Shown here piece after piece: positions 12,685 to 19,391 of a stretch of 19,391 nucleotides of DNA. Every line of letters starts with the position of its first letter. Positions within the stretch are counted from its first letter, which is position 1. This DNA is from Clostridia bacterium (lineage in GTDB: Bacteria > Bacillota > Clostridia > Oscillospirales > CAG-272), in the NCBI GenBank assembly GCA_017411935.1, contig JAFQPC010000169.1, positions 1 to 19,391 of the forward strand. The letters run 5' to 3'. Both the position numbers and the translations under genes were made by a program. A model generated the notes under the pieces. The model had not been told where the DNA came from and made no database searches. It was given only the letters and a program-made list of their open reading frames with translations.

Positions 12685-14070
12685 TTACTTGATATTGGGA
12701 AGGCTTGCTGCTGCGATCGACTGACCGACACGGCGGCTGCTCTCGTCGGGAAGATGGATGGTGATCTTCTCTGCGAGCTCGGGGAATTCCTCGGCAAGAA
12801 CCTTCTGTGCGTTCTTATGAAGAATGCTTCCGCCCTCACCCGACGATACACGACCCATCAGCAGTACGTGCTTGATATCGTAGAAGATTGCGTAGTAAGC
12901 AACTGCATATCCGAAATATGCGCCAATCGTCTCGTAGATCTTTGCCGCACGCTCGTCGCCCTGTGCCATCAGACCCTGAACGACCTTGAGCTTCTCTGCG
13001 GGAGATGCGCTCTCGTCGAGCTCAATTCCTGCCGCGGGAGCAAGCTTGATGACCGAATCCTGCGAGAAGTACTTGACTCCGCAACCGTAGTCGCCCGACC
13101 ACTCGTCAAGCATTGCCTCTTTGTTATAGTCTGCGGGAACGAACGCAAGCTCGTTGAGCCAGCCCGTGATGTTTCCGTTGCCGTCGACGTATCCGCCTGC
13201 TTCACTCGTACCCATTGCAACACCGAGAACGTTGGTGTCGCCAAGGTCCATCGCACCTGCCAGCGCCGTAACGTCACCGTCATTCGCGACCTCGATCGGA
13301 ACGTTTCCGAGTTCCTTCGCAATATCGGTATAGATATTCTTAACGACCTTCTCGAATGCTTCGGGATTTTCGTTCTTTACCTTGAGGAAAAGCGACGAGG
13401 TCATAATGCGATTTCCGATAACAACGCCTGCGGTAGAAACACCGATCGCGTCAACTCTCGGCATCTTGGAAGCCGCGGTCTTCATTGCGTCCATAATTCC
13501 CTCGTAGTGATACTGGGGATCGTTCTGAAGCTTGGGGAACCAAACGACTTCTTCGGAATAAGTAGCCTCGCCCTCGACGACAGCACTGACCTTACGGTCA
13601 CTTCCGCCTGCGTCAAAGCCGATACGGCAACCGTCGAGATGTCTGCCAACGGGGGCTGCCGTCTCGTTTGCCACGGGAGCTTCTTCAAAGGGAACGTGAA
13701 TGACCTCAAACGGAGCTTCGTACACACCCGACATAAAGTCGCGGTCAAATGCGCGGATACCCGTTTCGGTGTAATCTGCCTTGATCTGATCTGCGATCAG
13801 CTTCGAGCCTGCGATAATGATCTTGTATCCGCCGCGCGTCCAAAGAAGCGTCTTGACGATTCTCTCGACAAACTCGTGGTTCTCTTCATCGTGTCCCGTA
13901 CCGTCCTTGAATACCTCTACGGTAAATACCGAAGTCAGACCGTTGTTTCTTTCCAGACCGATCGTCAGCTTCTGTCCGCCCTCAGCCTTGACTGCCGCTT
14001 CAAAATCGCGGTATACGATCGCCATCGGCATAAAGCCGGGATCGAGGGGTGCATTTACTTTAAGCTTCAT
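12685..14070 (-). CDS. ROK family sugar kinase-like protein with N-terminal extension
   Basis: This 461-residue protein has a ROK fold in residues 148-461: phosphate-1 motif FDAGGSDRK (152-160), the putative catalytic Asp in VANDGDVTAL (D264), phosphate-2 motif MGTSEAGG (286-293) and a C-terminal adenosine-binding part (HVLLMGRVSSGEGG). ROK kinases are usually about 300 residues; the first 145 here are an extra alpha/beta domain I do not recognise. The CxCGxxGC zinc motif typical of ROK kinases is absent, with only YGCG near 329-331. Its start overlaps the nagA stop by 11 bp. Beside nagA, a role as an N-acetylhexosamine kinase or a regulator of amino-sugar use is reasonable; the substrate is inferred only. 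Confidence 0.83.
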   Translation of the reverse strand: MKLKVNAPLDPGFMPMAIVYRDFEAAVKAEGGQKLTIGLERNNGLTSVFTVEVFKDGTGHDEENHEFVERIVKTLLWTRGGYKIIIAGSKLIADQIKADYTETGIRAFDRDFMSGVYEAPFEVIHVPFEEAPVANETAAPVGRHLDGCRIGFDAGGSDRKVSAVVEGEATYSEEVVWFPKLQNDPQYHYEGIMDAMKTAASKMPRVDAIGVSTAGVVIGNRIMTSSLFLKVKNENPEAFEKVVKNIYTDIAKELGNVPIEVANDGDVTALAGAMDLGDTNVLGVAMGTSEAGGYVDGNGNITGWLNELAFVPADYNKEAMLDEWSGDYGCGVKYFSQDSVIKLAPAAGIELDESASPAEKLKVVQGLMAQGDERAAKIYETIGAYFGYAVAYYAIFYDIKHVLLMGRVSSGEGGSILHKNAQKVLAEEFPELAEKITIHLPDESSRRVGQSIAAASLPNIK

Positions 14071-15211
14071 AAATTGTTTTTCCTTTCTTGATGGTTCTTA
14101 TGATATTGATATTTGCATCCGTAATAATGATGTCCGCATCCTTGCCCTCTTCGAGCGAGCCCAAACGGTCTCCACAGCCGATTGCGTTGGCAGGGTTGAG
14201 AGATGCCAGTTTGAACACTTCGTTGACGGGAAGATTGGTGTAATCAAGCACGTTCTTGACTGCCGAGTTGAGCTTCAGAACGCTTCCTGCGATCGTTCCG
14301 TCGGCAAGACGGCACTCGATTCCCTTCAGGAAGATCGGCTGTCCGCCCAGATCGTATTCGCCGTCGGGCATACCGCCCGCACGGGTACAGTCGGTGATGA
14401 GCACCATCTTATCGCCCTTGACCTTAGCGATGATCGAGTAAAGACCGGGATTGATGTGGAAGGTATCCGCAATGACCTCGACCGAAACGTTCTCGGATGC
14501 GAGTGCCGCACCGACCACGCCGGGGTTTCTGTGCGCCAGCGCCGACATTGCGTTGAAAAGGTGCGTTGCGTGGTTGACTCCGTCCTTTGCCGCGCTCATT
14601 GCTTCCTCAAAGGTTGCGTCGGTATGTCCCATCGAAACGAGCACGTCCGATTCTGCCGCAAGCTTCTTAATGCACTGATGATCCTTGTCCATCTCGGGCG
14701 CGAGCGTGACAAGCTTGATGATATCCGAATGCTCGATGATGAAATCGGCATCGGGTACGAGAATATTCTCTGCTGCCTGAGCTCCCTTCTTCGAGGGATT
14801 GATGAACGGACCCTCTGCGTGAACGCCGAGGATCTCCGCGCCGTCCCAAGTCTTGCTTTCTTCCTTGAGAGAGCGAACCGAGTTCAGTGCCGCGATGATC
14901 TCGTCCTTGGCAACCGTCATCGTGGTGGGAAGGAACGCCGTAACGCCGTTCTGTGCCACGCCGTATGCCATCTTCTTCACGCCTTCGGGCTTCGCGTCAC
15001 TGGTATCCTCGCCAAAGCATCCGTGAATATGGATATCTACGAGACCGGGAGCAACGTAATTTCCGTTTGCGTCAATGATCTTCGCATCAGCGGGAACCGA
15101 TTCTACAAGACCGACGATCTTTCCGCTGTCGCTGTCAAACACAAGAGACTTGCCGGATACGACGGCATCGGGAAGCATGATTTTACCGTGGATAATGTAT
15201 GTCAATGCCAT
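14060..15211 (-). CDS. nagA: N-acetylglucosamine-6-phosphate deacetylase
   Basis: NagA removes acetate from GlcNAc-6-phosphate, giving glucosamine-6-phosphate for glycolysis or cell-wall synthesis. The protein has 383 residues, the usual length. Visible amidohydrolase motifs are VDIHIHGCFG (H61, H63), GVHAEGPFINP (metal-binding E133), SMGHTDAT (H196), NHATHLFNAM (H217), DTFHINP (H252) and LITDCTRAGG with catalytic D274. The ATG at 15211 follows AAGGAG at good spacing. It is the first gene of an operon with the ROK protein; nagB is not in the window. The promoter region carries a palindrome and paired direct repeats that point to control by a sugar-responsive regulator. Confidence 0.96.
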   Translation of the reverse strand: MALTYIIHGKIMLPDAVVSGKSLVFDSDSGKIVGLVESVPADAKIIDANGNYVAPGLVDIHIHGCFGEDTSDAKPEGVKKMAYGVAQNGVTAFLPTTMTVAKDEIIAALNSVRSLKEESKTWDGAEILGVHAEGPFINPSKKGAQAAENILVPDADFIIEHSDIIKLVTLAPEMDKDHQCIKKLAAESDVLVSMGHTDATFEEAMSAAKDGVNHATHLFNAMSALAHRNPGVVGAALASENVSVEVIADTFHINPGLYSIIAKVKGDKMVLITDCTRAGGMPDGEYDLGGQPIFLKGIECRLADGTIAGSVLKLNSAVKNVLDYTNLPVNEVFKLASLNPANAIGCGDRLGSLEEGKDADIIITDANINIIRTIKKGKTIYEA

Positions 15212-15332: not shown

Positions 15333-15383
15333 TATTTTATTGCTTTTTTGATTTAAATTTTATAAAGAAACCGTTATCCGTGC

Positions 15384-15418
15384 AAAAAAGCAGGTAGGCG
15401 ATTACCTACCTGCTTTTT
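15384..15418 (-). terminator. Intrinsic terminator of the PepSY-like lipoprotein gene
   Basis: GCAGGTAGG (15390-15398) pairs with CCTACCTGC (15405-15413), with A6 and T5 flanks that continue the stem and supply the U-tract. It directly follows repeat copy C on the minus strand. Confidence 0.85.
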
Positions 15419-15464
15419 GGTGCGCATCTTCACGAAGTTGCCATGATAGTATCGTCAGCTTGGT
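15418..15464 (-). repeat. Repeat copy C: deleted tRNA-Leu-like 3' end element
   Basis: This copy shares CTTCACGAAGTTGCC and a diverged TGAT-GTA-CGTCA-CTTGGT block with copy A (16760-16835), and keeps the terminal CGCACCA, but lacks the T-loop and the anticodon-stem part. It starts 7 nt after the stop of the gene at 15471 and runs straight into the terminator. Confidence 0.65.
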
Positions 15465-15470
15465 AAAAAA

Positions 15471-16178
15471 TTAGCCCTTACCGTGCAAGTAATATGGAAC
15501 AACGATTTCTCCCGTGTATTTATCTACCCATCTTTCTGTAGAATAAGAATAATGATCGACGACGTATTTTTCAATGACGATAACGTAAATATGCTCGGGG
15601 GACGGGACGTTAACTGTGTGCCTAACGCGGTATTCGTTTTCTTCATTTTCAAAATCCATATATTCACAATCGTTTTTGGCAATTTCTATCGCTTCCTCGA
15701 CGGGAATACCCTTTCCGTTCGGATCGTATGTAGACGCTGTAATTTCTCCCGTAAAAGCATTCACCAAGATTTGATCATGTGTGTTGATGTGATACGGCGG
15801 CATACTTTCATAACCATCCATGCCACCACCCGAGTTCCATTCGACTTGAAAGGCAAAGCGATAATGATCCGTTTCAGAATTAGGTGTGTCGATCAACACG
15901 ATTTTGGCGGTGAAAATTGTTCCGGCAGAATGCTCCTTTCTACCGTCTTGGTTATCCCAATATGCGTTTGCCAAATTCCACGCTTGTTCCGCGGTGATGG
16001 GATACGTCTGCATAGCCGTTTCATTATCTGAAATCTGTGCCGAAGTATGATCGCCATCAACCGAGTCGGAATCGGAATTTTCATTTTGCGAAAGTGTGTC
16101 TTGAGCTTCGTTCAATTCACAAGAAACCAGCGATAATATCATCATCAAACAAAGAAAAAAGGCAATAAATTTTTTCAT
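15471..16178 (-). CDS. Predicted lipoprotein with PepSY-like repeats
   Basis: This 235-residue exported protein has a lipoprotein signal, MKKFIAFFLCLMMILSLVSC, with Cys20. A Ser/Asp-rich linker follows to about residue 58. The rest has two stretches in the style of PepSY domains: an AEQAWNLANAYW helix followed by strands ending NAFTGEITAST, then PVEEAIEIAKNDC with strands ending WVDKYTGEIVVPYY. PepSY-type lipoproteins often act as peptidase inhibitors or membrane sensors, but the match is by pattern only. The ATG at 16178 has AAGGAG and a near-consensus promoter. It is monocistronic, ending in repeat copy C and a terminator. Confidence 0.8.
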   Translation of the reverse strand: MKKFIAFFLCLMMILSLVSCELNEAQDTLSQNENSDSDSVDGDHTSAQISDNETAMQTYPITAEQAWNLANAYWDNQDGRKEHSAGTIFTAKIVLIDTPNSETDHYRFAFQVEWNSGGGMDGYESMPPYHINTHDQILVNAFTGEITASTYDPNGKGIPVEEAIEIAKNDCEYMDFENEENEYRVRHTVNVPSPEHIYVIVIEKYVVDHYSYSTERWVDKYTGEIVVPYYLHGKG

Positions 16179-16210
16179 GAAAACTCTCCTTGTTTTTATC
16201 TCTCAATGCT

Positions 16211-16239
16211 ACTATAGCATATCAAAAAATCATTGTCAA
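16211..16239 (-). promoter_or_regulatory. Sigma-A promoter of the PepSY-like lipoprotein gene
   Basis: TTGACA (16234-16239) and TATAGT (16211-16216) on the minus strand are separated by exactly 17 bp, 32 bp ahead of the start codon. Confidence 0.85.
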
Positions 16240-16326
16240 GACGGTGGGGAAAAGTTTTTTTAAAAGGCACTTTTTTATGTCAAAGTGGGGAAAAAATCCT
16301 AAATTTTAAAAATTGGTGTGATCTAT

Positions 16327-16362
16327 ACTGCGGGGAAAAGGACTGTGAACTATGTTTCGCTT
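16327..16362 (-). repeat. Repeat copy E: degenerate tRNA-Leu-like 3' end
   Basis: On the minus strand this copy reads AAAGCGAAACATAGTTCACA, then GTCCTTTTCCCCGCAG. It matches copy D over about 33 bp but has lost the CCA end and has no strong terminator stem directly after it; only a weak CACTTT/AAAGTG hairpin lies further on, near 16269-16286. Confidence 0.6.
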
Positions 16363-16370
16363 TCTTTTCA

Positions 16371-16540
16371 ATCACGGCGAAGCCGTGGATGGAATCCGCA
16401 ACTTGTTGCGGTATGGAATCAATGCGGAGCATTGTATGGCATCGAGCCGCAAGAATACACCTTTGGTGATGCCATACGCCTTTGGCAATTCCATACACTA
16501 CACAAGTGCATTGATGCCATACCAAGCCTGCGGCTTGGAT
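16371..16540. repeat. Array of mini-hairpins joined by TATGGMATC connectors
   Basis: Short stem-loops alternate with a conserved connector. Stems include CCGCAA/TTGCGG (16396-16411), CAATGC/GCATTG (16420-16434), CACC/GGTG (16458-16468), GCC/GGC (16478-16486), CACT/AGTG (16496-16508) and CCAAGCC/GGCTTGG (16522-16538). Connectors are TATGGAATC at 16412, TATGGCATC at 16435, and the inverted form GATGCCATA or ATTCCATA at 16468, 16488 and 16513, so the array is roughly symmetric. No gene is supported here: the 659-bp gap 16179-16837 holds this array, copies A, D and E and two terminators. Confidence 0.75.
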
Positions 16541-16542
16541 AG

Positions 16543-16572
16543 AAAAAAGACCGTTGTAAAACGGTCTTTTTT
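16543..16572 (-). terminator. Intrinsic terminator after repeat copy D
   Basis: A perfect 13-bp stem, AAAAAAGACCGTT (16543-16555) with AACGGTCTTTTTT (16560-16572), has a GTAA loop. It is symmetric in its A/T tracts, so it could act on both strands, and it directly abuts copy D. Confidence 0.8.
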
Positions 16573-16574
16573 CT

Positions 16575-16618
16575 TGGTGCGGGTAAAAGGACTGTGAACC
16601 ATGTTTCGCTTCGCTCAA
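16575..16618 (-). repeat. Repeat copy D: tRNA-Leu-like T-arm and CCA end
   Basis: On the minus strand this copy reads GAGCGAAGCGAAACATGG, then TTCACAGTCCTTTTACCCGC and ACCA. It keeps the acceptor 3' strand TACCCGC, discriminator A and CCA of a leucine tRNA, but the T-loop is 8 nt instead of 7 and the 5' part is unrelated to tRNA. Hairpins follow upstream of it at 16620-16646 and 16694-16710. Confidence 0.7.
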
Positions 16619-16720
16619 CGGCAAGTTTGCTTTCGCAAACATTGCCCGCCGCTTGATTGTTTTTCTAACTTTGAAAACTTTGCTTGCGGCGGGAAGCTTC
16701 TGCGAAGCTTTACCCGCGTC

Positions 16721-16760
16721 AAAAAGAAACACCAAGGCGTTTGCCTTGGTGTTTCTTTTT
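16721..16760 (-). terminator. Intrinsic terminator after repeat copy A
   Basis: A perfect 18-bp stem (16721-16738 with 16743-16760; core ACACCAAGGC with GCCTTGGTGT) has a GTTT loop and A5/T5 ends. It follows the CCA of copy A without a gap. Confidence 0.88.
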
Positions 16761-16835
16761 GGTGCGGGTAAAAGGACTTGAACCTTCACGAAGTTGCCCC
16801 CACTAGAACCTGATGGTAACGTCACCTTGGTGAAA
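16760..16835 (-). repeat. Repeat copy A: tRNA-Leu(CAG)-like 3' half
   Basis: On the minus strand, positions 16760-16812 look like the 3' half of a leucine tRNA: CAGG and TCTAG of an anticodon stem, a long variable arm, the T-arm GAAGG-TTCAAGT-CCTTT, acceptor strand TACCCGC, then ACCA. The 5' half of a tRNA is missing; in its place is TCACCAAGGTGACGTTACCA, which recurs in copies B and C. It begins about 3 nt after the stop of the gene at 16838 and ends in a terminator. Confidence 0.75.
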
Positions 16836-16837
16836 AG

Positions 16838-17242
16838 TCATAACAATTTTTCTAATTGATAAATTGCCATCTTTGGGGTTAGAACATTGATATTAACCTT
16901 CAATAAAAGTTCATATATATCCCCAAATACGCCAAAAATTCTCGATATCTCAGACATAAGATCTTCCTTTAATACGACATTTCCTTTATTCCTGACACAA
17001 GTAACTCCCATCACAGAAAGGTTATCATAATCTATCAAGAATTTATCAAACGTTAATATTCCATTGAGTCTCATTAGAAACTCTGAAGTTGCTTCTATGT
17101 TTGAAATTCCAAAATGCTCTAATGATATAACAATTGTATAATCTTCGTTATCTACAGCAATACGAACCGTTCCTGTTATCGGTATAAAATCTTTGGCAAT
17201 TGTTTGATGGGGGAGAATAATAAAACCGTTATAAACATTCAC
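16838..17242 (-). CDS. YbjN-like protein, N-terminus lost to a frameshift
   Basis: The frame is open for 134 residues from a GTG at 17242, which has no ribosome binding site. The same frame is open further upstream to 17314 without an ATG, and reads ILKIFDNLGIEYRVNVYNGF, coherent protein that continues into this ORF. A well-placed ATG with AAGGAG at 17307 lies in another frame, so a one-base indel near 17278-17286 probably split a gene of about 156 residues. The alpha-beta pattern (amphipathic helix, GIEYRV strand, VRIAVDNEDYTIVIS strands, EFLMRLNGILTFDKFLID, final helices) resembles YbjN / type III secretion chaperone-like folds. That is pattern matching only. It ends directly in repeat copy A. 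Confidence 0.55.
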   Translation of the reverse strand: MNVYNGFIILPHQTIAKDFIPITGTVRIAVDNEDYTIVISLEHFGISNIEATSEFLMRLNGILTFDKFLIDYDNLSVMGVTCVRNKGNVVLKEDLMSEISRIFGVFGDIYELLLKVNINVLTPKMAIYQLEKLL

Positions 17243-17274
17243 TCGATACTCAATACCTAAATTGTCAAATATTT

Positions 17275-17307
17275 TTAAAATGCTTTGATAAATTTTTCTG
17301 AATACAT
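17275..17307 (-). pseudogene. Detached N-terminal codons of the frameshifted YbjN-like gene
   Basis: The ATG at 17307 has AAGGAG at 7-8 nt spacing and encodes MYSEKFIKAF before a TAA at 17275-17277. It starts 10 bp after the upstream zinc-ribbon gene. Shifting by one base near 17284 joins MYSEKFIK to SILKIFDNLG of the downstream frame, which is why I read it as the true start of the gene at 16838. Confidence 0.5.
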
Positions 17308-17317
17308 TTTAATCTCC

Positions 17318-17932
17318 TTAAGAATTTAAAAAATAAAAGTTGTCGTAGCCGTTTCTTGCCATTTTTGCTAATTCCAAAGATGGTATACTATAAAAGTTGG
17401 TTTCGGATTCTATTCCTTTAAAATGTTCGTAGGAAAAAAGCTTTATTTTTGTTATCGTGTCTACGAAGTATTTGGGTTGCATAATAATAGAATATGGAAT
17501 GAAAAATAAGGGAAAATTAGAAAATCCATATTCAGCCAAATTCATATCGTTAATACTGTAAAAATAATAAGATTTGGTCTTTTCATGTTTCGCATAATAC
17601 CACTTTGGTTCGCGAAGTATAATACGCTCTATTTCGTCCTCTACGGTTATGTTTTTATTGCAAAACAAATCGTCGTTTTCTGAAATAGGTATCAAAAATA
17701 AGCATAATCCTCCGCCTTTAAACTGAATTGCATATGGGTATATAGTACATTTTTTTGCATTGTTATCACTGTATAATTCGCGTATATTATCGGGATTAAA
17801 ATGTTCAACAGGGTGGTTGCCTTTGGTAATATCGTTTCGCGTTGTTATTCCGTCTTGTGATGCTCCACAATAAGAGCAAATCTTTTTATTTGCGGATATA
17901 CTTTTTTTACACTTGATACAGGTTACCAACAT
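17318..17932 (-). CDS. Hypothetical protein with N-terminal zinc ribbon
   Basis: This 204-residue protein begins with a zinc ribbon, MLVTCIKCKKSISANKKICS then YCG (Cys5, Cys8, Cys19, Cys22), typical of small zinc-ribbon leaders. The rest is rich in Tyr, Phe and Ile (IYPYAIQFKGGGLCLFLIPI, NFPLFFIPYSIIMQ) and may form a beta-rich domain. I recognise no family. The ATG has AAGGAG, and a TTGACA-17-TATCAT promoter lies upstream, divergent from the small XRE gene. It forms an operon with the frameshifted gene 10 bp downstream. Its base composition is visibly more AT-rich than the nagA and ABC regions, which suggests acquired DNA. Confidence 0.75.
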   Translation of the reverse strand: MLVTCIKCKKSISANKKICSYCGASQDGITTRNDITKGNHPVEHFNPDNIRELYSDNNAKKCTIYPYAIQFKGGGLCLFLIPISENDDLFCNKNITVEDEIERIILREPKWYYAKHEKTKSYYFYSINDMNLAEYGFSNFPLFFIPYSIIMQPKYFVDTITKIKLFSYEHFKGIESETNFYSIPSLELAKMARNGYDNFYFLNS

Positions 17933-17965
17933 TTTGAATTCTCCTTATACTTTAACTGCATTTAT

Positions 17966-17994
17966 ATGATATCACATGTTCTTAAGTTTGTCAA
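17966..17994 (-). promoter_or_regulatory. Sigma-A promoter of the zinc-ribbon gene
   Basis: TTGACA (17989-17994) and TATCAT (17966-17971) on the minus strand have a 17-bp spacer. TGATATCA, a perfect 8-bp palindrome, overlaps the -10. Confidence 0.82.
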
Positions 17995-18023
17995 GTGCTA
18001 TTTATCTCTCTTGATAAATATAA

Positions 18024-18045
18024 ACCTTTAATAATAAGGTATAAT
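18024..18045 (+). promoter_or_regulatory. Promoter -10 and candidate operator of the small XRE gene
   Basis: TATAAT (18040-18045) is a good plus-strand -10; TTGATA at 18011 is 23 bp away, too far for a normal -35. The inverted repeat ACCTT-7-AAGGT (18024-18040) abuts the -10 and is a candidate XRE operator that might also affect the divergent gene. Confidence 0.5.
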
Positions 18046-18068
18046 ATCATAAAAAGGAGGAACTAAAA

Positions 18069-18359
18069 ATGACATATAATATCGCAGATAAAATAAGATA
18101 CTTGCGTGACAAGGCAGGATTTACACAGACAGACCTTGCTAAGCGTTTGGGAATTTCAAGAAGCGCAGTGAACTCTTGGGAAATGTCACTTTCTTCCCCC
18201 TCGTTATCAAACATCATAGAAATGACACAAATCTTTCACGTCAGTGCGGATTATCTTTTATTCGATTCTGATAAAATGATGATCGACATTTCTTCTCTCG
18301 ATAATGACGAGAGAGAAATCATTGTAAAATTGGTAGCTTGTATGGAAAAGAATAAATAA
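18069..18359 (+). CDS. Small XRE family transcriptional regulator
   Basis: This is the only supported plus-strand gene. The 96-residue protein has an XRE/Cro HTH at about 8-62: RYLRDKAGFTQTDLAKRLG then ISRSAVNSWEMSLSSPS, ending in VSADYLLF. The C-terminal 30 residues form a short helix (DNDEREIIVKLVACMEKN) that may dimerise. AAAGGAGG lies 8 nt before the ATG. It is divergent from the zinc-ribbon operon across a 136-bp region, the usual layout for a repressor that controls its neighbour and itself. It ends in a terminator shared with the convergent gene at 18477. Confidence 0.92.
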   Translation: MTYNIADKIRYLRDKAGFTQTDLAKRLGISRSAVNSWEMSLSSPSLSNIIEMTQIFHVSADYLLFDSDKMMIDISSLDNDEREIIVKLVACMEKNK

Positions 18360-18393
18360 AAAAGAAGAATCACAATTGTGATTCTTCTTTTTT
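18358..18393. terminator. Perfect palindromic bidirectional terminator
   Basis: A 36-bp uninterrupted palindrome centred at 18375/18376 (arm GAAGAATCACAA with A-run before it and T-run after) lies between convergent genes. It overlaps the XRE stop codon on the left and abuts repeat copy B on the right. Confidence 0.88.
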
Positions 18394-18394
18394 T

Positions 18395-18467
18395 GTGAAG
18401 GTAAATGGTCTTGAACCTTTACCAAGGAACTACGATTAGAACATGCTGGTAACATCACTTGGGTGAA
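18395..18467 (-). repeat. Repeat copy B: diverged tRNA-Leu-like element
   Basis: On the minus strand it reads TTCACCCAAGTGATGTTACC, then AGCATGTTCTAATCG, a variable part, then AAAGGTTCAAGACCATTTAC and CTTCACA. It aligns along its whole length with copy A but the acceptor strand and CCA have decayed. It begins 10 nt after the stop of the gene at 18477. Confidence 0.65.
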
Positions 18468-18476
18468 CTAATATTA

Positions 18477-19070
18477 TTACTTTAATTTGTTTTTAGGCTT
18501 GGGATTGGAATCTTTAATCCGATCAATAAATTGTTCTATAATCGGATACCCGCCAGCGGTATGACGAAATTCTGCTAGGGTACATCCTTTTTTTACATCA
18601 TTCAAAAACTGAAATTGTTGCTCAATAGTTTCAGTATCAACAATTCCTAAATTCCACGATACCAACATAGTTTCTAACGTATTTAAGTAAGTTATTACAT
18701 GCCATCTCAATTCAGTTAATATTTTACCGTCCACAGTTTTACTATTTTTCAGGGAACAATTAGCACAATGGCTACTGTCAATAGGACAAAATTTGCATAT
18801 ATCTTTCTTAATATCATCAGAAACATCAAAGGCTTGATGCTCATATAATTTTTGACATTGATCGGTGTTCAATTTGCGAGCAACTTGTTCAGCTATGCAA
18901 GTATCCTTTTTTAAAGAATTACACCATGTTGCCATAAATTGTGTGGTGTTTTCACGACGACGCTCTTCATGTTGTTGTTTTATTTGTTTTCTCAGTAAAT
19001 AGATTTGAATTATAACTAGAAAAGCTGTAATAATTAAAATAATTAGTTCTAAAATCGCCACACAAAGCAT
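18477..19070 (-). CDS. Single-TM protein with Cys cluster, possibly DUF4760-like
   Basis: This 197-residue protein has one N-terminal TM (about 5-26, ILELIILIITAFLVIIQIYL) followed by a basic, coiled segment (RKQIKQQHEERRRE), then a mostly helical cytoplasmic domain. CKFC at 92-95 and CANC at 102-105 form a likely zinc site, with further Cys at 50, 58 and 72. The part around RWHVITYLNTLETMLVSWN and the TM-plus-helix layout resemble DUF4760 proteins, whose function is unknown. The ATG has AAGGAG and its own promoter. The gene ends in repeat copy B and the palindromic terminator. AT-rich composition suggests acquired DNA. Confidence 0.78.
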   Translation of the reverse strand: MLCVAILELIILIITAFLVIIQIYLLRKQIKQQHEERRRENTTQFMATWCNSLKKDTCIAEQVARKLNTDQCQKLYEHQAFDVSDDIKKDICKFCPIDSSHCANCSLKNSKTVDGKILTELRWHVITYLNTLETMLVSWNLGIVDTETIEQQFQFLNDVKKGCTLAEFRHTAGGYPIIEQFIDRIKDSNPKPKNKLK

Positions 19071-19104
19071 ATTTATCTCCTTAATAATTTATTTATTTTT
19101 ATCC

Positions 19105-19133
19105 ATTATACAACATATTTCAAGAAAATTCAA
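19105..19133 (-). promoter_or_regulatory. Promoter of the single-TM Cys-cluster gene
   Basis: TTGAAT (19128-19133) and TATAAT (19105-19110) on the minus strand have a 17-bp spacer, 34 bp ahead of the start codon. Confidence 0.8.
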
Positions 19134-19216
19134 CATGTTTTTACAAAATAACTGTTAAAATCATTTTTTAGTTAGACTTTTTTCAAAGAAGTTGCGTGTC
19201 TGCCAACAATTTTTAA

Positions 19217-19265
19217 AAGATAAAAGCCTCGAAAACGTAGTGTTTTCAAGGCTGATTTTTATCTT
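19217..19265 (-). terminator. Terminator-like hairpin from an upstream unit beyond the window
   Basis: AAGATAAAAGCCT pairs with AGGC and TTTTATCTT, and an inner GAAAAC/GTTTTC stem closes on a 5-nt loop. Between it and copy F lie smaller stems (GTGCTG/CAGCAC, GACAGC/GCTGTC). The 321-bp stretch 19071-19391 holds only this, the promoter at 19105 and copy F; no gene. Confidence 0.55.
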
Positions 19266-19347
19266 GTTCGCTAAATTGTACCATCGGGTGCTGAACAAAG
19301 AAATTCGGCAGCACTGACAGCGACTATTGGCTGTCGGCACTGCCGAC

Positions 19348-19391
19348 TGGTGCGGGTAAAAGGACTATGAACCATGTCTCGCTTCGCTCAA
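19348..19391 (-). repeat. Repeat copy F: tRNA-Leu-like end, cut by window edge
   Basis: On the minus strand it reads TTGAGCGAAGCGAGACATGG, then TTCATAGTCCTTTTACCCGC and ACCA. It is nearly identical to copy D (16575-16618), including the 8-nt T-loop, and reaches the right edge of the window. Confidence 0.7.

Follow-up and report, generated by a model that had tools for sequence, protein, structure and literature searches.

The window analyzed here, a stretch of 19,391 nt from a Clostridia bacterium (contig JAFQPC010000169.1 of assembly GCA_017411935.1) that reaches the contig end, contains three minus-strand sequences, copies A, B and C, which are most probably (probability roughly 0.8) the attR junctions of mobile cassettes inserted site-specifically in the anticodon loop of a tRNA-Leu(CAG) gene, with a serine integrase as the putative enzyme. 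The tRNA pieces in these copies are probably the scars of small mobile cassettes that cut into the leucine tRNA gene with the help of a serine integrase, encoded by an element that has a spare tRNA of its own, and we conclude that the window holds three integrase-less cassettes accreted at tRNA-Leu(CAG). Comparison of nucleotide sequences demonstrates the anatomy of the site, its breakpoints, its linkage to an integrase and one tRNA that appears to have been split and replaced. The original prediction had listed six related copies (A to F) in the same orientation; their positions and single orientation stand, but the copies fall into two classes, and the sense of the tRNA is that of the minus strand. 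The junctions of the first class and their terminators are as follows.

16760-16841, minus strand: copy A, attR-type junction, with the arm at about 16814-16837, the core TCAGG at 16809-16813 and the 3' half running to CCA at 16760; the arm is common to relatives.
16720-16757, minus strand: intrinsic terminator after A, with a folding free energy (dG) of -26.0.
18393-18469, minus strand: copy B, decayed attR-type junction, scoring 59.7 bits with a hidden Markov model (HMM).
18358-18393, minus strand: intrinsic terminator after B (dG -17.7).
15418-15472, minus strand: copy C, putative attR-type junction with heavy deletions, immediately behind the stop codon of the gene at 15471-16178, assigned by a weak HMM match and by eye.
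15383-15417, minus strand: intrinsic terminator after C, recognized by eye.

Each of the three copies consists of a conserved non-tRNA arm (TTTCACCgAGGTGACGTTACCA), which abuts the stop codon of a gene, and of a tRNA-Leu(CAG) 3' half, the two being fused in the anticodon loop. On the minus strand of copy A, the gene stop is followed by CTTTTCACCAAGGTGACGTTACCA, TCAGG, TTCTAGTGGGGGCAACTTCGTGAAGGTTCAAGTCCTTTTACCCGCACCA and the terminator, where the tRNA-Leu(CAG) 3' half begins at TCAGG; A and B share 76% identity over 79 nt. Copy A is identical over 56 nt, from TCAGG in the anticodon loop through 2 nt beyond CCA, with the tRNA-Leu(CAG) of relative G015. The intact locus of G015 (CCA, terminator and the repeat of copy D) aligns with the A-to-D part of the window at 88% identity over 274 nt, starting exactly at TCAGG, and a further 2.6 kb of chromosome is shared at 87% identity. 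The cassette side of A, comprising gene, arm and 3' half, shares 91% identity over 559 nt with a cassette of G024, the alignment ending at CCA. As its two sides align with G015 and G024, respectively, A is the point where a cassette meets what was once the tail of a tRNA, and the earlier suggestion of a mobile or recombining module or recombination site is borne out by these matches to two different relatives and from a breakpoint inside the tRNA part. The terminator behind each CCA would be a legacy of a working tRNA gene, which formerly ended in this 3' half and to which the terminator belonged.

The original prediction also considered use as a 3' untranslated region. A functional module of this kind, whose tRNA-like end and terminator protect or process mRNAs, would accord with the location of the copies after stop codons and ahead of terminators. 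It is not supported and is very improbable, as only the 3' half of a tRNA is present, several copies are decayed, and the arm contains an inverted repeat and is matched by an inverted partner, features to be anticipated in a DNA site. No tRNA was called by ARAGORN in the window or in the element alone, and the RNA fold of the element was no better than that of shuffled sequences (z = +0.45; 131 of 200 shuffles folded at least as well). Rfam likewise gave no tRNA in the window at gathering score, and only chance-like hairpins at a permissive threshold.

When 395 genomes of the family were searched with a pattern of arm and core, allowing up to 3 mismatches, 36 sites were found in 26 genomes from 11 of the 71 genera, and the reversed pattern, which served as the control, gave 0. 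A shorter exact pattern retrieved 21 stretches from GTDB genome contigs, all titled Clostridia, Oscillospiraceae or Clostridiaceae metagenome-assembled genomes (MAGs), many of them from sheep, goat or deer gut; the records with names are MAGs, and many of the genomes compared are incomplete. The arm without its tRNA part was found at 19 sites in 12 of 147 genomes, all at known tRNA-Leu places (one being the reversed arm of G011) and none at another target, and it was not found in the viral contigs scanned. Further copies, anticipated by the earlier note, are thus numerous in relatives, but the assembly to which the window belongs (1.3 Mb in 217 contigs, 67% complete) contains, outside the window, only a real tRNA-Leu(TAG) and two matches of 14-15 nt. 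Chance decay of a single tRNA locus, or its duplication through homologous recombination, would suit the decayed state of B, C and E and the assignment of D, E and F to a different repeat family that occurs at the tRNA 3' end; it is nevertheless scarcely credible, as it is contradicted by this distribution of a non-tRNA arm against an empty control, by the common breakpoint and by cargo that differs between copies.

In the 34 genomes selected for holding the arm, the HMM gave 53 matches at E <= 0.01, one of which is a reversed arm. In 32 of the 53 matches, the arm lies no more than 25 nt from the end of a same-strand open reading frame of at least 60 amino acids, compared with 21 of 265 random positions. 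Behind CCA, 39 of 52 matches have a strong terminator-like hairpin (dG <= -12), compared with 11 of 265 random positions. The stop codon before and the terminator after the element, as originally described, are therefore beyond chance in these arm-holding genomes, and an origin from inserted cassettes would explain the terminator after most junctions and the stop codon ahead of many.

All four attachment sites were identified across genomes, rather than in one, namely attB (the tRNA), attR (arm and 3' half), attL (5' half and inverted arm) and attP (arm and inverted arm). The attL site, a tRNA 5' half ending in TCAGG followed by the inverted arm, is located upstream of an intact tRNA in G005, G401, G325, G011 (two in tandem), G008, G151 and G349. 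Such junctions of 5' half and inverted arm counter a simple model with cassettes carrying only the tRNA 3' half, which has been set back. A scan for attP (arm, TCAGG and inverted arm) gave a site in 1 of the 395 genomes, G442, with 3 mismatches to the pattern, where it sits between a presumably HipA-like gene and an intact tRNA-Leu(CAG). The attP and attB sites differ and have a common core, TCAGGT, of about 6 bp, with attL and attR as their hybrids. A serine integrase would perform attP x attB recombination at tRNA-Leu(CAG), and, as the two sites share only TCAGGT, the tRNA could not be rebuilt, so that the element would come with a spare copy, complete with leader and terminator. Cassettes that have these sites but no integrase would be moved in trans and pile up.

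A gene pair that we take to be HipBA-like ends at the G442 attP, which is the only full dyad site (arm and inverted arm) found (L227, 1665-3067) and may stem from a circle, a tandem or a deletion. Other copies of the tRNA 5' end upstream of tRNA-Leu(CAG) are interrupted at position 8 or within the D-loop, or are arranged as inverted foldbacks (L054, L056, L057, L061, L067, L217, L221-L224 and L158); each such aberrant copy is then followed by the intact tRNA, which suggests further small insertions at the same tRNA.

A rescue tRNA is indicated in G151, where the 5' half of attL starts with GCGGATG and the 3' half of attR ends with CATCCGC-ACCA. The two halves joined by script gave a tRNA-Leu(CAG), while either half alone gave no tRNA; among the four rejoined tRNAs tested, those of G151, G401 and one of two G005 joins gave tRNA-Leu(CAG). 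Near the integrase of G151, by contrast, the intact tRNA has the sequence GCAGGTG...CACCTGC; both are Leu(CAG), and their acceptor stems differ. As the rejoined tRNA differs from this intact copy, the resident tRNA appears to have been split and another to have been supplied by the element. G151 thus combines an element-borne tRNA of the same isotype with a split resident tRNA, as in tRNA-dependent integration. The DNA following the tRNA of the integrase-bearing G008 element recurs in the window at 19191-19253 (93.7% identity over 63 nt) and in 11 other genomes of the 36 compared (10 with junctions, plus G023), lying 2-5 nt after CCA in five places; the match in the window ties its integrase-less cassette to an integrase-bearing element.

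Serine recombinases were scanned in 34 genomes, 25 of which had a match, and their coordinates were compared with the known sites. Integrase-sized enzymes were located within 5 kb of a site on the same contig in G008, G184 and G232. The G008 integrase (541 amino acids) contains Resolvase, Recombinase and zinc-ribbon domains, and the combination of PF00239, PF07508 and PF13408, which characterizes large serine integrases (proteins of about 500-600 amino acids), was present in 4 of 4 full-length homologues tested. Its relatives at 65-75% identity occur in four family genomes, which gives five in total with G008, found separately. Four integrases lie near tRNA-Leu(CAG) and face the tRNA, at 111 nt in G008, 189 nt in G349, 258 nt in G376 (a fragment) and 974 nt in G151, while in G184, where the 14 kb read contains no tRNA-Leu, a distance of 4.2 kb separates the integrase and an attR. 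Relaxase genes adjoin the integrase in G184 and G349, where the combination that defines an integrative and mobilizable element (IME), relaxase plus integrase, is thus present, and the parent elements look mobilizable; G151 has a shortened relaxase match under the cut-off. Three more distant integrases (31% identity) were found in G191, G218 and G240. No relative of the integrase was found in viral contigs, and the best match in phage records had 30% identity. The serine recombinase of G232 is of another kind, with mobilization-like genes upstream (by eye), and stands directly before a lipoprotein-like cassette gene and an attR (L229, 5326-7966).

In relatives, one to four junctions lie downstream of an intact tRNA-Leu(CAG) with cassettes between them, and 13 genomes have the intact tRNA on the same fetched piece as at least one junction. 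Among the 20 HMM matches on tRNA loci, 19 are on the same strand as the tRNA and 0.8-8.5 kb downstream of it, while the 20th (G011) is a reversed upstream arm, an attL. Four junctions were found in G017, on two pieces of one contig, and in G290, where the tRNA is outside the view.

A tentative extension, given somewhat less than an even chance, is that every cassette is a portable tRNA-Leu gene with cargo, whose insertion splits the working tRNA at the anticodon while the incoming tRNA replaces it, in the manner of a Russian doll. The 5' halves would then accumulate upstream and the 3' halves downstream, and the leucine tRNA of the cell would be that of the newest cassette. This nesting fits G011 (two tandem attL, with the contig ending at the tRNA), G401 (one attL and one attR) and G325 (two attL, one decayed, and two attR), and in part G005 (one attL and two attR), while G001, G019, G026 and G198, among others, would need loss of attL.

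Several results weigh against insertion by a serine integrase as proposed above. A clear attL upstream of the tRNA is present in only 3 of the 12 array loci showing that region (G005, G325 and G401), and, with a clear attL missing in the other 9, strict nesting of the cassettes is unproven. Few genomes have the integrase (4 of the 395 in the family at >=65% identity), and the genome of the window, 67% complete, has no serine recombinase match. No excised-circle DNA was seen, the attL and attR of G151 are on different contigs, the G005 join with the outermost, truncated junction gave no tRNA, and copy C is assigned to attR on weak evidence (HMM E value 0.017). The attL could often have been lost by slippage between 38-nt direct repeats about 128 nt apart, or many cassettes could enter while rebuilding the tRNA from a carried 3' half.

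The insertion of islands at tRNA genes is generally attributed to tyrosine integrases, which restore the tRNA. A tyrosine integrase, or the host Xer, might accordingly insert cassettes having a site of arm and 3' half, with the tRNA rebuilt each time, which would explain the arrays without a clear attL as well as the exchange of tRNA variable-arm alleles between elements; an Xer-like recombinase is present in 21 of 30 genus genomes and is the sole PF00589 match in the array genomes G006 and G024, both incomplete. We regard this as unlikely, as a PF00589 scan of 30 genus and 21 family genomes placed only one match, in G291, closer than about 20 kb to a known site (an attR some 1.5 kb away, in opposite orientation). 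Some matches on array contigs are 24-58 kb away (G001, G005, G015 and G017), and other integrases are scattered. It also leaves unexplained the 5' halves with inverted arm, the dyad attP and the split tRNA of G151 with its different intact copy. A tyrosine recombinase was thus rejected as the driver for want of linkage to the sites, and is kept as a rival to the serine integrase. On the array or tRNA contigs of G017 and G015, the tyrosine recombinases are surrounded, by eye, by type I restriction specificity genes, and one in G005 looks like part of a separate element. Tyrosine recombinases that by eye sit inside type I restriction specificity loci (L154, 4706-5512, and L155, 6220-7029, the latter broken by a stop) are perhaps phase-variable shufflers.

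Compared with known systems, as described in the available portions of the reports cited here, the proposed insertion has the same logic as the tRNA-dependent lysogeny of actinobacteriophages (PMC10865867), which involves tyrosine integrases and phages, whereas a serine integrase, relaxase-bearing elements and arrays of small integrase-less cassettes are found here. As the integrase family is serine rather than tyrosine, the system works like tRNA-dependent integration but is not a member of it as published. The IMEs and integrative and conjugative elements (ICEs) of Firmicutes with serine integrases are alike in having a protein with Resolvase, Recombinase and zinc-ribbon domains, a relaxase, very short direct repeats and a split target (PMC5704250, PMC4701971). 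The serine integrases described there insert into protein genes, among them rumA, mutT and hsdM (PMC5704250, PMC4701971), while here the target is a tRNA gene with a spare copy. Cis-mobilizable elements (CIMEs) and site-specific accretion (PMC5704250) share the integrase-less elements retaining att sites and the tandem stacking; of the CIME features, the arrays show attR and, in the 3 of 12 loci, a clear attL, but they differ in their often one- or two-gene cassettes, the gene stop abutting the site and up to four junctions in a row. The additive flexible genomic islands of Alteromonas (PMC4119200) and Methylophilaceae (PMC10872708) and the tycheposons (PMC10872708) also have a tRNA as insertion target, and the islands have repeated tRNA 3' ends (52 nt of Leu-tRNA and 20 nt of tRNA-Lys; PMC4119200, PMC10872708), while a split tRNA, a rescue tRNA, a conserved palindromic arm and a serine integrase are not described for them in the available portions (PMC4119200, PMC10872708). 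A serine integrase splitting a tRNA and bringing a spare copy was not found described in one open-access literature collection.

Integrons comprise arrays of often single-gene cassettes, each with a short conserved recombination site beside the stop codon. The arrays described here work alike, with cassettes in a row and a short conserved site at the gene end, but their site is half tRNA and the proposed recombinase is serine rather than tyrosine. No linked IntI tyrosine integrase, which defines an integron, was found, as no PF00589 match lies inside the array loci of the genomes scanned, the nearest being that of G291. A serine integrase appears to break tRNA-Leu and to compensate with a spare gene, and stripped-down, often one-gene cassettes exploit the same site. 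Such a mechanism would offer a simple principle by which tRNA genes could serve serine integrases as targets. The arrays may represent a gene-capture platform in uncultured herbivore-gut Clostridia, for which the arm is a simple marker, and the spare tRNA may be a way of making the element indispensable to its host. If the Russian-doll nesting holds true, this would be an integron-like gene capture system with a tRNA as its platform.

On the minus strand of the window, the predicted order of the array is contig end, F, cassette 1, B, cassette 2, A, D repeat, cassette 3, C and chromosome, and an intact tRNA-Leu(CAG) is expected just past base 19391. No tRNA-Leu(CAG) was found by a DNA search of the assembly, 67% complete, which is expected if the contig breaks at the repeat. 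The cassettes and the flank comprise the following features.

19191-19253, minus strand: start of cassette 1, terminator region, matching the DNA right after the tRNA of the G008 element.
18477-19070, minus strand: cassette 1 gene, 197 amino acids, DUF4760 (PF15956), with its stop 7 nt ahead of the B arm.
18069-18359, plus strand: small HTH_3 regulator, antisense inside cassette 2.
17318-17932, minus strand: cassette 2 gene, 204 amino acids, with a zinc-ribbon-like start (weak, under the Pfam cut-off).
16838-17242, minus strand: cassette 2 gene, 134 amino acids, whose stop abuts the A arm; this is the gene of the G024 alignment.
15471-16178, minus strand: cassette 3 gene, 235 amino acids, lipoprotein-like by eye and without Pfam match; similar DNA is found in cassettes of other genomes.
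12685-15211, minus strand: chromosomal flank with two genes, which we take to be nagA-like (14060-15211) and kinase-like (12685-14070); the same DNA follows tRNA-Leu(CAG) in G015.

The cargo of the arrays in relatives includes lipoprotein-like genes (by eye), AraC regulators, an FGGY kinase, an esterase, YitT, and GH39 and beta-lactamase-family proteins, and many of the 30 proteins searched with Pfam had no match. A scan of ten proteins for defence genes gave only HTH domains and the presumably HipA-like cargo of G442. The lipoprotein-like genes have a near-constant leader (like MKKxIAFLLCLMMILSLFSC) and differing bodies (L054, L056, L059, L062, L157 and window 15471-16178). A multi-gene antisense operon, in some cases accompanied by an AraC-type gene, was seen in several genomes, where it is located between junctions or next to the tRNA (L055, 4204-9886; L064; L075; L067), and thus cassettes can reach about 6 kb.

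Copies D, E and F are a phenomenon separate from the A, B and C junctions, as they are T-arm/acceptor scraps of a tRNA 3' end attached to a dispersed hairpin repeat. D and F share 95% identity over 44 nt, whereas A and D share only 61%; the six copies are therefore not one family. Their positions are as follows.

16575-16725, minus strand: copy D, hairpin-rich dispersed repeat, resembling repetitive extragenic palindromic (REP) sequences and ending in a tRNA T-arm/acceptor scrap (16575-16600).
16540-16574, minus strand: terminator after D, resembling one that lies behind an attR in G005.
16327-16362, minus strand: copy E, decayed scrap of the D type.
19348-19391, minus strand: copy F, scrap of the D type, cut at the contig end.

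A search with the D repeat and its scrap matched 26 of 30 genus genomes, where the hairpin itself was present in 20 and the tRNA tail alone in 6, as counted from the rows listed. The hairpin repeat, with the core GGCAAYGTTTGCGAAGCAAACTTGCCGTTGAGCGAAGCGAAACAT, has 27 matches in G007 (window 16575-16725; L175, L178, L193 and L188). The repeat also occurs away from tRNAs, and beside some tRNA genes (Leu, Asn and perhaps Glu) it bears a displaced copy of the tRNA 3' end.

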